Source: Chthoniobacterales bacterium
Lineage (GTDB): Bacteria; Verrucomicrobiota; Verrucomicrobiia; Chthoniobacterales; UBA10450
Direction: 5' to 3'
DNA length: 40,676 bases
Assembly (NCBI GenBank): GCA_025934755.1
Contig: JAICWQ010000007.1
Location: 1-40,676 of the forward strand
Shown here: piece after piece, positions 6,874 through 25,755 of the stretch
Layout: the number at the start of each line of letters is the position of its first letter
How positions within the stretch are numbered: the stretch's first letter is position 1
Made by a program: the position numbers and the translations under genes
Notes under the pieces: generated by a model
Seen by the model: the letters and a program-made list of their open reading frames with translations, nothing else
What the model was told of the DNA's origin: nothing
The model's database searches: none

Positions 6874-7971
6874 CTAGGAGCTGATGCGCATAGGCATCAG
6901 GACGTAGAGGAACGGCGTCTGAATTTTCAGGACGCCCGGACTCATTTCATCAATCAGATCCAGGAAAACTTCGTCTTCAGTCAATGCCCGCAGCGGCGCC
7001 ATGAAAAACTCGGGATTAAAGGCAATCGAGAAATCGCGCCCTTTGTATTGCACTGGAAGCGATTCCTTGGCTTCACCGACTTCTGGGGTGTTAGCCGTAA
7101 TGTCGATGTTGTTCTTGCTGAAGTTGAGCTTGATTGAGTTTGATTTCTCGCTCGCAAGAAGCGATACGCGCCGCAACGAATTCAGAAATGTTTCGCGCTC
7201 GAGAGTCACCCGTTCCTTCGCTTCGGCCGGAATGACCTGCTTATAATTCGGGTAATTACCCTCAATCAATTTCGAGACCAGCAACGTCTTGTTCAGGTCA
7301 AAGGCAATTTGACCGCTGGCCACGCTGACTTTGACATCGCCTTCATCAGTCAACAGCCGCTGCAGCTCGGTAACGGCCTTGGTTGGAACGATGATGTCCG
7401 CTTCCTGACTCCGCGGAATCTCCAGCTCGATATCAACCATCGCCAGACGACGTCCATCTGTTGCCACCAGGGTCAGCTTGTTGTCTTTGAAACTGAACAA
7501 CAGACCATTGAGAACGTAGCGAGTTTCATCCGTCGAGATGGCGTAGGAAGTTTTTCGCAAACCGTCTCGAAGGTCTTTTTGGCGAATGGTGACCACTTTC
7601 GCTTCTTCGAATTTCGGAAGCGGCGGAAATTCCTCTTCCGGCAAGCCCAATATCTTGAAAAAACTCTGGCCGCTCCGAATCGAAGCTGCGTTTTTACCAT
7701 CGACGTCGATTTGAATCTCGCTGGCGGGTAATTCGCGAACGATGTTGAACAACCGCCGGGCCGGCAGGGTCGTTGCCCCTTCCTTTTCCACCTCAGCCTC
7801 AAAGCTTCCCCGGACTCCCACGTCAAGATCGGTGGTCGTCAAATGAACCGCGCCGTCGTTCGCCTGCAGGAGCACGTTCGACAGAATTGGCAGCGTCGTC
7901 CGGGTGCTGACGACATTCTGGACCTGCTGCAAACCTTCGAGCAACTTTTCTTTAGTGGCGCTAAACTTCAT
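6874..7971 (-). CDS. dnaN: DNA polymerase III subunit beta (sliding clamp)
   Basis: MKFSATKEKLLEGLQQVQNVVSTRTTLPILSNVLLQ...LTTTDLDVGVRGSFEAEV...VATDGRRLAMV...YVLMPMRI. Confidence 0.95.
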   Translation of the reverse strand: MKFSATKEKLLEGLQQVQNVVSTRTTLPILSNVLLQANDGAVHLTTTDLDVGVRGSFEAEVEKEGATTLPARRLFNIVRELPASEIQIDVDGKNAASIRSGQSFFKILGLPEEEFPPLPKFEEAKVVTIRQKDLRDGLRKTSYAISTDETRYVLNGLLFSFKDNKLTLVATDGRRLAMVDIELEIPRSQEADIIVPTKAVTELQRLLTDEGDVKVSVASGQIAFDLNKTLLVSKLIEGNYPNYKQVIPAEAKERVTLERETFLNSLRRVSLLASEKSNSIKLNFSKNNIDITANTPEVGEAKESLPVQYKGRDFSIAFNPEFFMAPLRALTEDEVFLDLIDEMSPGVLKIQTPFLYVLMPMRISS

Positions 7972-13455: not shown

Positions 13456-14352
13456 TTATCGCACCCGCGGGACGGTGACAAACGGCCTGTGCGTCCCTTT
13501 CCTGTTAGTCTTGGCCCTACTTTTCCGCGCGTGATGAAATAAATACTGCTGCGCATAACCACCATGGCTGCCGAAGTATTTCTCTGTGAACGCCCGCAAC
13601 CGCGCGACGTTCAATTTTCGCGCCCGCGGAAAATACTTCTCGCGCAGGACCCGCTCGATCCAGACGTCGATCGGGAACGCGCTTAATCGCTCATAGGCAA
13701 AAAGCATCACACAATTAGCAACCTTCGCACCCACACCCGGGAGATCGCACAAGCGCGCGCGAAGTTCGGTATCGGAGAGTTGGGTCGGACTCTCGAGATC
13801 GACATCTCCCGAGCTGATTTGACGCGCTGTGGCCAGCAGATTTTTCGCCCGATAACCGAGCGCGCATTTGCGCAGCTCCTTCTCCGAACTGGCCGCGATC
13901 CGTTCCGCCGATGGAAATGTGTAGACGACTTCGTTTCTGATTCTTCGTGGTTCGCCAAATCGTTCCCGCAGCTTGTGCGAGATCTGCCGGATATGGGCGA
14001 CCTGTTTCATTGACGAACAAATAAAGCTCGCCAGGCACTCCCATTTTGGCTGCCGAATGATTCGCAAGCCGCGACAAAAATCGCGCGCCGCATTCATCGC
14101 CGGATCGTTTGGAAACGAAGCGCAGATTTCCCTGAGCGGATGGTCGAGGGCGAAATAACGCGCGACCGTGGCACGGGCATCCTGCCCCTGTTCATTATCC
14201 CATCGGCTGGAAGCCGATGCCACTCTTAACAAATCTCCACGCTGCTCCACAAAAACCGCTTGTTCGCCAATCGTTCCCACGAATCCGTCGCCGGACGGTT
14301 CCCAATGAAACACCTGTCCGCAATCGAGGGTCATCGCCAAATCGAAATCCAT
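13456..14352 (-). CDS. 8-oxoguanine DNA glycosylase / HhH-GPD family DNA glycosylase
   Basis: DCGQVFHWEPSGDGFVG, FICSSMKQVAHIRQIS, LCDLPGVGAKVANCVMLFAYERLSAFPIDVWIERVL (HhH-GPD); start uncertain, upstream starts to 14415 possible. Confidence 0.85.
   Translation of the reverse strand: MDFDLAMTLDCGQVFHWEPSGDGFVGTIGEQAVFVEQRGDLLRVASASSRWDNEQGQDARATVARYFALDHPLREICASFPNDPAMNAARDFCRGLRIIRQPKWECLASFICSSMKQVAHIRQISHKLRERFGEPRRIRNEVVYTFPSAERIAASSEKELRKCALGYRAKNLLATARQISSGDVDLESPTQLSDTELRARLCDLPGVGAKVANCVMLFAYERLSAFPIDVWIERVLREKYFPRARKLNVARLRAFTEKYFGSHGGYAQQYLFHHARKSRAKTNRKGTHRPFVTVPRVR
14168..14223. repeat. REP-like double-hairpin element inside the glycosylase CDS
   Basis: GTGGCACGGGCATCCTGCCCCTG...CATCGGCTGGAAGCCGATGCCAC; closely matches 23886-23934. 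Confidence 0.85.
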
Positions 14353-14420
14353 GGTAACGATTTTGGTTGGCTCCACTTGGAAACGTTCAACGCCGGAACC
14401 CTCAACGTCCAACACTCAAT

Positions 14421-22480: not shown

Positions 22481-25135
22481 TTAGGCGACGACGATGTTGA
22501 CAAGCTTTTTCGGAACGACGACGACCTTGATTACATTCTTTCCGGCAAGGAGTTCCGCGATTTTGGGGTTCGCCAGGGCCGCGGCTTTGATTTCATCTTC
22601 GGTCGCGGACATCGACATCATCATTCGATCTCGGAGTTTTCCGTTCACTTGAACGACGATCTGGACTTCGTCTTCGACGAGGAATTTCTCGTCGTAAGAT
22701 GGCCAGGGTTGTTGGCTAATATCTCCGGTCGAGCTCAATTTTTCCCACAACTCCGAGCTCAAATGCGGGGCGAATGGATTGAGCAAGGTCAAGAAGGTCC
22801 GTATCGCAGAAATCGGGACGGCATCAGTCGCGCGCTGAGGAATAAATGCGTTCACGAAAATCATCATCTGTGAAATCGCGGTGTTGAACGAAAGCGATTC
22901 GATGTCCTCCGTGACTTTTTTGATCGTGGCGTGAAGGACTTTGCTTTGCGCCTTCGTCAGTTCGGCATCTTTTAGTCCATTCGACAACTGCCAGTCACCT
23001 GCCTGGTTTTCGGTCATGATGAGGCGCCAGACGCGCGCCAAAAACCGCGCCACGCCTTCGACCCCGTGCATACTCCACGGTTTCATCTGCTCGAGCGGCC
23101 CCATGAACATTTCGTAACAGCGAAACGCGTCCGCGCCGTACTGGTCGATCACGTCGTCGGGGTTGACGATGTTCCCGCGGGACTTCGACATTTTCTGGCC
23201 GTCTTCGCCGAGGATGATTCCCTGATTCACCAGACGCTGGAACGGCTCGGATTTCGACAGATATCCAAGATCGAAAAGCACCTTGTGCCAGAAACGCGCA
23301 TAAAGCAGGTGCAAGACGGCGTGCTCCGTCCCGCCTACGTACAAATCGACTCCGCCTGGAGTCGATTTGAGTGACGACCGAGTCCGAGCCGGACTGGCAT
23401 TCGAGACGGGTGACGCGCTTCCCATCCAATATTTTTCAGCGTCCTCGCCGACGAAACGTTTGTCGTTTTTCGGATCGCAAAAACGCAGATAGTACCAACA
23501 TGAACCCGCCCATTGGGGCATGACGTTCAGCTCGCGCGTTGCTTTGTCCGAGTAACGAATCCAATCCTTCGCCTTAGCAAGCGGCGGCTCACCGGTGCCG
23601 GTCGGTTTGTAGTCCTCCAACGGCGGCGGGATTACCGGGAGTTCTTTTTCCCCTAACGAACGATGTTTTAGATGCCCTCCCGGATCGCACTGCTCCCACA
23701 CGATCGGAAACGGTTCGCCCCAGTAACGCTGGCGTGAGAAAAGCCAGTCGCGGAGTTTGTAGTTAATTGCGCGTTTACCGAGCCCGCGTTTTTCCAGCCA
23801 CTCCGTTATTTTTCGAATCGCATCGCGAGATGGTAGTCCGTCAATAATCGGCGAATTGACGGCAATGCCGTCGCCGACAAAGGCTGTGGCATTGGCATCC
23901 TGCCAATGAGACGCCGGCTGGAAGCCGATGTCACTTTCTCCAGGCGGCTGAACTACCTGCCGGATCGGCAGATCAAACTTGCGCGCGAATTCGAGATCGC
24001 GCTCATCGTGCGCCGGCACAGCCTGAATCGCGCCGGTCCCGTAACCAAGCAGGACGTAATCGGCGATCCAGATCGGAATCTTTTCTTCGTTGGCTGGATT
24101 TATCGCGAAGGCGCCGGTGAAGACACCGGTTTTTTCTTTCGAGAGCTCGGTGCGCTCGAGATCGCTTTTGCGCGCAGTCCGTTCCCGATATTCGCGAACC
24201 GAGGGCCACTCCTCTTCGGTGACGATTTGATCGACCAACGAATGTTCCGGCGCGAGCACCATGTAGGTCGCCCCGTAGAGGGTATCGGGCCGGGTCGTGA
24301 ACACACGGATGCGCGTTTCGTGGTTATCAATTTTAAAATCGATCTCCGCGCCTTCGCTGCGGCCGATCCAGTTTTGTTGAAGCAACTTGATGCCTTCCGG
24401 CCAATCGAGACCTTCGAGTTCGTCAATCAGTCGCTCGGCGTACGCAGTAATGCGCAACATCCATTGTCGCATCGGCCGCCGGACAACTGGAAAACCGCCG
24501 ACCTCACTTTTGCCATCCACCACTTCTTCGTTCGCCAGAACGGTTCCAAGTTCCGGGCACCAGTTCACCGGCACATCGGCGACGTAAGCGAGCCGGACAA
24601 AATCGGGATCATCCCCTCGGTAGGTCGAGATCGGCTCCGCCTTGTTTGTCTCCGGATTGAACCAGGAGTTGTAGATCTTGAGAAAAATCCATTGGGTCCA
24701 CTTGTAGTAACCGGGATCGGTGGTGTTGATCTCGCGTTGCCAGTCGTAGGAAAAACCAATCCGCTTTAACTGCGATTTGAATTTGGCAACGTTTTCGCGG
24801 GTGGTGATCGCCGGATGCTGGCCACTTTTGATGGCGTATTGCTCGGCCGGGAGACCGAAGGCGTCCCATCCCATCGGATGCAAGACGTTGAAACCGCGCA
24901 TTCGCTTGTAGCGAGCGATAATATCGGTGGCGGTGTAACCTTCAGGATGTCCGACGTGCAGACCCGCCCCGCTCGGATACGGGAACATGTCGAGGACGTA
25001 GAATTTGGATTTCTTGGGATTAAAACCGTTCTCGCCCGGGTTCGGCGCGTGAAAGCTCTGGCGATCCTCCCAGATTTTCTGCCATTTCGGCTCGATCTGG
25101 TCGAACGGATAAGGTTTGCGGCGCTCGCTGCTCAT
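22481..25135 (-). CDS. leuS: Leucine--tRNA ligase
   Basis: [20 protein letters not shown] (HIGH), [11 protein letters not shown] (KMSKS), [25 protein letters not shown]; start at [19 protein letters not shown]. Confidence 0.95.
23343..23395. repeat. Palindromic insertion within leuS
   Basis: AAATCGACTCC-GCCT-GGAGTCGATTT (23343-23368, perfect 11-bp stem) and AGTCCG-AGC-CGGACT (23381-23395). Confidence 0.75.
23886..23934. repeat. REP-like double-hairpin element inside leuS
   Basis: GTGGCATTGGCATCCTGCCAATGAGACGCCGGCTGGAAGCCGATGTCAC; homologous to 14168-14223. Confidence 0.85.
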
Positions 25136-25147
25136 CGGATTATCAAT

Positions 25148-25171
25148 CAGGAAAGCAGGAAAACAGGAAAA
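25148..25171 (+). repeat. Octamer array CAGGAAAG CAGGAAAA CAGGAAAA abutting the rdgB ATG
   Basis: Read directly; the last A is the A of the start codon; contains repeated AGGA (SD-like). Confidence 0.7.
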
Positions 25172-25755
25172 TGGAATTGGTTCTTGCAACCGGCAATCCG
25201 CACAAAACGCGGGAGTTTCGACAACTCCTCGGAGATGATTGCGAGCTGCTCGATTTAAGCAGCTTCGCCAACATCGAGATGCCGGATGAAACCGGAGTTA
25301 CCTACGAAGACAACGCAATTCTGAAAGCGAACAACATTTCGAGGCGAGTCGACAAAGCCATCATTGCGGATGATTCCGGGCTCGAAGTGGACGGGCTTGA
25401 TGGCGCTCCCGGAATCTATTCCGCCCGTTATGCCGGAGAGAAATCGACGGATATGGCCAAGGTCGACAAGTTGCTGCGAGAACTAAAACCCGGAATGAAC
25501 CGGTCGGCGCGTTTTCGATGCGTGATCGCCCTGGCGCGGGCGGGAAACGTATTGGGTACCTTTGAAGGAATCGTCGAAGGAACAATCGTCGATTGTCCCC
25601 GCGGCAGTTTCGGATTTGGTTACGATCCGGTCTTTCAGCCAGCCGGTTACCAACAGACGTTTGCCGAAATGACCGCTGAACTAAAGAACCGGATCAGTCA
25701 CCGCGCGAAAGCGGTCGCCGCATTGCGCGAGTTCCTTTCCGAAATCGGAAATTAA
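25171..25755 (+). CDS. rdgB: dITP/XTP pyrophosphatase (RdgB/HAM1)
   Basis: [55 protein letters not shown]. Confidence 0.94.

Follow-up and report, generated by a model that had tools for sequence, protein, structure and literature searches.

Genes are not where bacterial transposons are expected to be found, and the locus described here raises the question of how a palindromic repeat comes to be read as part of a conserved DNA repair enzyme. In the window, i.e., the whole 40,676-nucleotide stretch of DNA analysed in this study, the first-pass annotation singled out a REP-like element inside an ogg-like DNA glycosylase gene and regarded it as an intergenic-type repeat that the enzyme had tolerated. 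The repeat does lie inside the enzyme, but it is not a single stray intergenic repeat, because most copies of its family in this genome are intragenic as well. From sequence comparisons, we consider it very probable that the element represents a short non-autonomous transposon of the REPIN/BIME type, built from two head-to-head GTGG-tailed REPs, presumably moved by a RAYT and tolerated in a permissive loop of Ogg. A repeat family and its transposase would then be housed mainly within essential coding sequence and leave it readable. The window belongs to a 2.97-Mb MAG (G000) of an uncultured soil Verrucomicrobium, and the genomes compared here are draft assemblies, mostly MAGs.

A REP dimer within an ogg-like gene

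The 56-bp element, whose sequence is identical to that quoted in the annotation, reads GTGGCACGGGCATCCTGCCCCTG-TTCATTATCC-CATCGGCTGGAAGCCGATGCCAC and consists of two REPs, each with an unpaired GTGG tail, an 8-bp stem and a 3-nt loop, on either side of a 10-bp spacer (Table 1). The complementary ends (GTGGCA/TGCCAC) and the two inner hairpins described earlier are real, with one C-C mismatch in the left hairpin (7 of 8 pairs). The minimum free energy of the element folded as DNA is -13.2 kcal/mol (z -2.2), and the 56-bp sequence was absent from all shuffles of the window.

Table 1. Coordinates of the REP dimers, their host genes and the embedded RAYT loci (window positions unless a contig or locus is named)
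Feature	Position	Strand	Remarks
ogg-like 8-oxoguanine DNA glycosylase gene	13456..14415	-	319 aa; dimer = residues 65-83
REP dimer (REPIN-like, head-to-head, GTGG tails outside)	14168..14223	.	in frame in ogg-like gene
Left REP monomer GTGGCACGGGCATCCTGCCCCTG	14168..14190	+	tail GTGG, stem with one mismatch, loop TCC
Spacer TTCATTATCC	14191..14200	.	10 bp; differs between copies
Right REP monomer	14201..14223	-	exact consensus GTGGCATCGGCTTCCAGCCGATG on minus strand
Leucyl-tRNA synthetase gene	22481..25189	-	carries dimer 23886..23934 in editing domain
Second REP dimer, same family	23886..23934	.	in frame in LeuRS, 17-residue peptide
Sua5-embedded RAYT	contig C2, L086:6097-7725		frame order YrdC domain, REP, RAYT, REP, Sua5_C
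REPs flanking Y1_Tnp domain in sua5	C2, L086:6743-6765 and 7384-7406		
Embedded RAYT loci	L191-L208, L291-L325		

The element encodes V65-T83 (VASASSRWDNEQGQDARAT) exactly in frame, and the host assignment made in the annotation is borne out by the domains of the 319-aa ORF, which matches Pfam OGG_N (4.6e-19) and HhH-GPD (5.6e-9) as well as TIGR00588 ogg (9e-52); it matches PDB entry 3f0z by sequence (9.2e-48) and by fold (TM 0.79/0.88). An AlphaFold model based on 68 sequences (mean pLDDT 88) places the insert between the strand of residues 62-67 and the helix of residues 80-87, with pLDDT below 50 at residues 71-77. The insert is thus predicted to occupy a beta-alpha loop in the N-terminal part of the enzyme, the N-terminal domain, and to be disordered there, so that the modelling proposed in the annotation leads to a loop. 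Distant orthologues lack these residues: the loop comprises 27 aa in the window and 16-17 aa in the members of the same order outside the window's clade. The lineage-specific insertion proposed earlier is therefore real, but its size is not the 15-20 residues expected; the net gain is only approximately 11 residues because approximately 8 native loop residues are gone. Native loop residues have been replaced, not merely displaced, and the insertion boundaries are therefore approximate.

A dispersed family, largely in genes

The search for further copies in the genome, also proposed in the annotation, was productive. BLAST of the 56-bp element against its own MAG gave 60 matches, and a covariance model built from 25 aligned full dimers identified approximately 48 distinct dimers (E < 0.01), most of which were listed twice because the dimer is nearly its own reverse complement. 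All 25 aligned dimers share the inverted, tails-outward order, the GTGG tail, the 8-bp stem and the 3-nt loop; in the family as a whole, the unit is G+C-rich and 48-67 bp long, with spacers usually of 2-5 or 9-13 bp. In the alignment, 94% of the cells are paired, and both sides have changed in 9 of the 16 pairs; compensatory cells number 46, against 15.6 in shuffles (as high in 0 of 500), and sliding the stem partner abolishes the signal. The covariance model also detects GTGG-REP dimers in the genomes of many relatives. Across Ogg proteins, this loop varies greatly in both length and sequence, as it would if these residues were an ordinary fast-evolving loop with a coincidental palindrome. 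We regard this explanation as refuted by the genomic copies: the DNA of the insert matches a repeat that is scattered through the genome and whose stems change in pairs, and the same peptide type (ASASSR..GQDAHAT) occupies the same Ogg loop in three other genomes.

A coding score over 240 nt proved too weak to classify the copies, and copies were instead assigned to genes or to intergenic regions from ORF span and Pfam matches, not from a full annotation. By this measure, at least 28 of the 48 dimers in G000 lie in frame inside Pfam-recognised genes. The hosts are Ogg, PurL, RmlD, TsaD, IleRS, LeuRS, a barrel-domain ribonucleotide reductase, an amino-acid permease (two copies), the E2 subunit of a 2-oxoacid dehydrogenase, LpxB, UvrA, a GH, a methyltransferase, DNA polymerase B, RarA, a class III aminotransferase, CoaE, PMT_2, QueG, SMC, MoaA, an IMS polymerase, DnaE, OCD, a class V aminotransferase, an endonuclease/exonuclease/phosphatase protein and an S9 peptidase. 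Pfam profiles are stretched at the inserts, by roughly as many residues as the insert contributes: HHH_6 of DnaE takes 110 residues for 90 positions, AAA_assoc_2 of RarA 96 for 80, and QueG_DUF1730 90 for 77. The remaining copies are mostly between intact genes; approximately 10 are wedged between the 3' ends of convergent genes, with both stop codons only a few bases away. No gene-breaking copy was seen among the G000 dimers. In the LeuRS gene of the window, window positions 23,351-23,422 hold another apparent in-frame insertion, of 24 residues, between EKYWM and VDLYVGG, and its DNA differs from the GTGG-REP.

Since all these genomes are drafts, we considered whether the in-gene copies might be assembly chimeras of a short repeat. 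This is extremely improbable: in 28 cases, the flanks come from one gene and the frame is kept, and the same insert type recurs at the same sites in separately assembled genomes. A role of the REP peptide or of an mRNA hairpin in the host, e.g., in regulating repair or translation enzymes, would fit the many DNA repair, replication and tRNA genes in the above list, and Di Nocera 2013 (PMC3733652) noted similar host genes in other species. We nevertheless hold such a role to be very unlikely, because all three reading phases are used, yielding peptides of the VASAS-, WHRHPAD- and GIGFQPM- types and therefore no conserved peptide, and because a permease, LpxB, RmlD and a peptidase are hosts as well. 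Most likely, the dimer has no role in the host and is selfish DNA that extends a permissive loop. Peptides derived from REPs (ASASSR..GQDARAT and others) call for caution when verrucomicrobial proteins are annotated, aligned or used in indel-based phylogeny.

Intragenic REPs as such are already known, from Rickettsia and Opitutus. REPs of the GTAG superfamily occur inside ORFs, most numerously in the verrucomicrobium Opitutus terrae, and GTGG is a reported variant of the GTAG tail that is found in most O. terrae GTAG-20 elements (PMC3733652). The GTAG-20 elements resemble the family described here in their short stem, short loop, unpaired four-base tail, head-to-head dimers and presence in Verrucomicrobia, and also in that dimers lie inside ORFs (encoding 20-30 aa in that case) and often strike DNA-repair genes (PMC3733652). 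However, GTAG REPs are mostly intergenic (PMC3733652), unlike the copies in G000, and the hosts of GTAG-20 differ from those found here (Ogg, LeuRS, IleRS, TsaD and Sua5); the comparison covers architecture, placement and hosts. In Pseudomonas fluorescens SBW25, REPINs are likewise mobile units consisting of an inverted REP doublet with a variable spacer and a RAYT as presumed transposase, but they are extragenic (14 of 1,067 REP 16-mers overlap genes), and spacers in the present family are much shorter (Bertels and Rainey 2011, PMC3116915). The Rickettsia palindromic elements (RPEs), which predate the 2013 description of GTAG REPs, are also palindromes tolerated in frame in unrelated metabolic genes. 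They were first reported at approximately 150 bp, however, and the GTGG-REP dimers, which are shorter, G+C-rich, GTGG-tagged and associated with a RAYT that stands between copies of the same REP, fall outside the RPE family in both sequence and size; the CGTC-type REPs of Rickettsia have no known dedicated transposase. The dimers share with GTAG-type REPs and REPINs the tail, the inverted order, dispersal in many copies and a RAYT flanked by the same REPs, and depart from REPINs in not being mainly extragenic. Their intragenic placement is a variant of the GTAG-type REP, not a reason to exclude them from that class.

Several palindrome classes in the Ogg loop

Ogg orthologues were collected from 58 related genomes and 80 named GTDB records, mostly soil Chthoniobacterales including Candidatus Udaeobacter. 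The orthologues point to a basal loop of 16-17 residues, and in the window's clade it has been lengthened by at least four unrelated classes of palindromic insert: the TCC-loop REP (the window, L212, L213 and L243), an inverted repeat of the GGAGGGCGGAGCTCC class (L214, L232, L245 and L251), a GACCGCTTAAAGCGGTC hairpin (L211, L215, L236 and L249) and a GGCGAGACGCC type. Repetition is plain for the GGAGGGCGGAGCTCC class, with 45, 26 and 21 matches in a set of three genomes (G021, G026 and G032). The GGCGAGACGCC-type double hairpin is a low-copy element that sits in the Ogg loop of many relatives (L033, L039, L051, L072 and others) and is rare elsewhere in their genomes. High copy number was also sought for the 27-aa inserts that are common in relatives (GETPQPARETRA type), of which only a few copies were found, and this class is therefore weaker evidence.

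The dimer might instead be an old, vertically inherited insertion that is only decaying, in which case the palindromes of the relatives would be diverged descendants of one event. The equal net loop length (27 aa) of several inserts speaks for such a history, as does the modest support of the Ogg tree, the starred branches of which force just one change involving the TCC-REP. On the other hand, the loop classes have unrelated stems and loops, one of them being repeated in its genomes; in a tree built without the loop, the loop class changes 19 times and the four TCC-REP carriers fall on four branches (with modest branch support); and the copies in G000 have near-identical stems but different spacers. 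We therefore consider a single old insertion unlikely and conclude that related genomes have filled the Ogg loop repeatedly with different palindrome families. In-frame insertions of this kind amount to repeated natural experiments on which loops of a protein can take up extra sequence, and through them mobile DNA makes proteins longer and may give rise to new domains. Ogg has a second in-frame insertion hotspot near residue 157, which is occupied in four genomes (L071, L072, L073 and L074; G002, G027, G022 and G029, respectively). The inserts at this site differ from one another and measure 20-40 aa, and that of G029 has a palindrome-like stretch, TCGACTGCGCTCCGCTTCGCTCGGGATGACAG.

A presumptive transposase in Sua5

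Among the 13 Y1_Tnp matches in G000, all of which were checked for neighbouring REPs, only the one in Sua5 is REP-flanked. This RAYT has the HUH motif PNHVH, the Tyr motif YVIENP (Y-x3-NP) and a PF01797 match (E 7.7e-9), and we take it as the presumptive cognate transposase of the GTGG-REP dimers. The REP-RAYT-REP arrangement occupies the Sua5 linker in G000, G023 and G146; the linker is empty in most relatives, e.g., G004/G022, and holds a bare REP dimer, RGRGFQPMSHRQDADAT, in G010. In the Sua5 of G023 (L208), a full REP dimer is directly followed by REP-RAYT-REP in the linker, as if two insertions were stacked. The LeuRS loop that carries a bare dimer in the window holds a complete RAYT in eight genomes of other families; in G066, the same REP peptides, SGIGFQPM and QDADAT, stand on either side of this RAYT, and the genome has 212 matches to the REP model on both strands, the highest count seen. 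The variants of the Sua5 linker and the LeuRS loop thus present both forms of one element family at two sites.

REP copy number suggestively tracks the cognate RAYT: counts are high in G000, G066 and G023, zero in G138 and one in G124. However, the REP-rich genomes G022 (73% complete) and G009 have no Sua5-clade RAYT, and we therefore do not take the trend as proof. In the mechanism that we propose, the RAYT, a Y1 HUH transposase, probably moves the REP dimer as single-stranded hairpin DNA. In every frame, the REP halves are largely free of stops, and an insertion that keeps the frame by its net length therefore adds approximately 16-20 residues to the host protein; copies would survive in loops, in linkers or between genes, and frame-breaking insertions would presumably be purged. 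The enzymes that carry inserts or fusions presumably work.

RAYT domains across the order

In a survey of 146 genomes, in which RAYT matches were sorted by the length of the stop-free frame, 121 matches were found in 59 genomes, 79 of them in frames of at least 550 aa and 39 in frames of at most 320 aa. A host was recognisable in 43 of 45 long frames inspected, by Pfam for representatives and by flanking residues for the rest: CarB (14), restriction/methylase genes (6), LeuRS (8), RecG (5), ValRS, ClpB and Sua5 (3 each) and MetH (1). In the 12 genomes tested, the CPSase_L_D3 domain occurs once per genome; it is split by a RAYT near profile position 55 of 80 in seven and unsplit in five. The RAYTs cluster by host gene rather than by genome (16 label changes versus 37.7 in shuffles), and the 14 CarB rows, the Sua5 rows and the ClpB rows each form one clade in the RAYT tree; by their sequences, RAYT domains thus appear largely to form host-gene-specific clades. 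This pattern resembles the inheritance of inteins, but no intein/Hint match was present among the Pfam hits of eight RAYT fusions (E <= 1e-6). On balance, we lean towards the view that Chthoniobacterales RAYTs are in-frame, apparently non-splicing domains of single-copy housekeeping enzymes that persist as intein-like host-gene lineages and seed REP dimers in permissive loops. If the RAYT truly persists in this embedded state, its long retention would be explained, as imprecise removal kills the host gene.

The REPtrons formed by RAYT/TnpA-REP proteins similarly comprise a Y1 HUH transposase flanked by REPs (Quentin 2018, PMC6006769; PMC8266576), but their RAYT is a free-standing gene, in contrast to the in-frame domains of housekeeping enzymes described here. 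Quentin et al. 2018 (PMC6006769) dropped unexpectedly long Y1 members as gene fusions or annotation errors. Our literature search, outside which most subscription papers lay, found no report of RAYTs inside CarB, LeuRS or similar enzymes; as far as the searched literature shows, the intragenic share of the dimers, the shared hotspot and the embedded transposases are new. The CarB of G000 itself has no RAYT (L326, G000:C185:22193-22462), and its D3 match takes 90 residues for 77 positions, which suggests a small insert near the same point.
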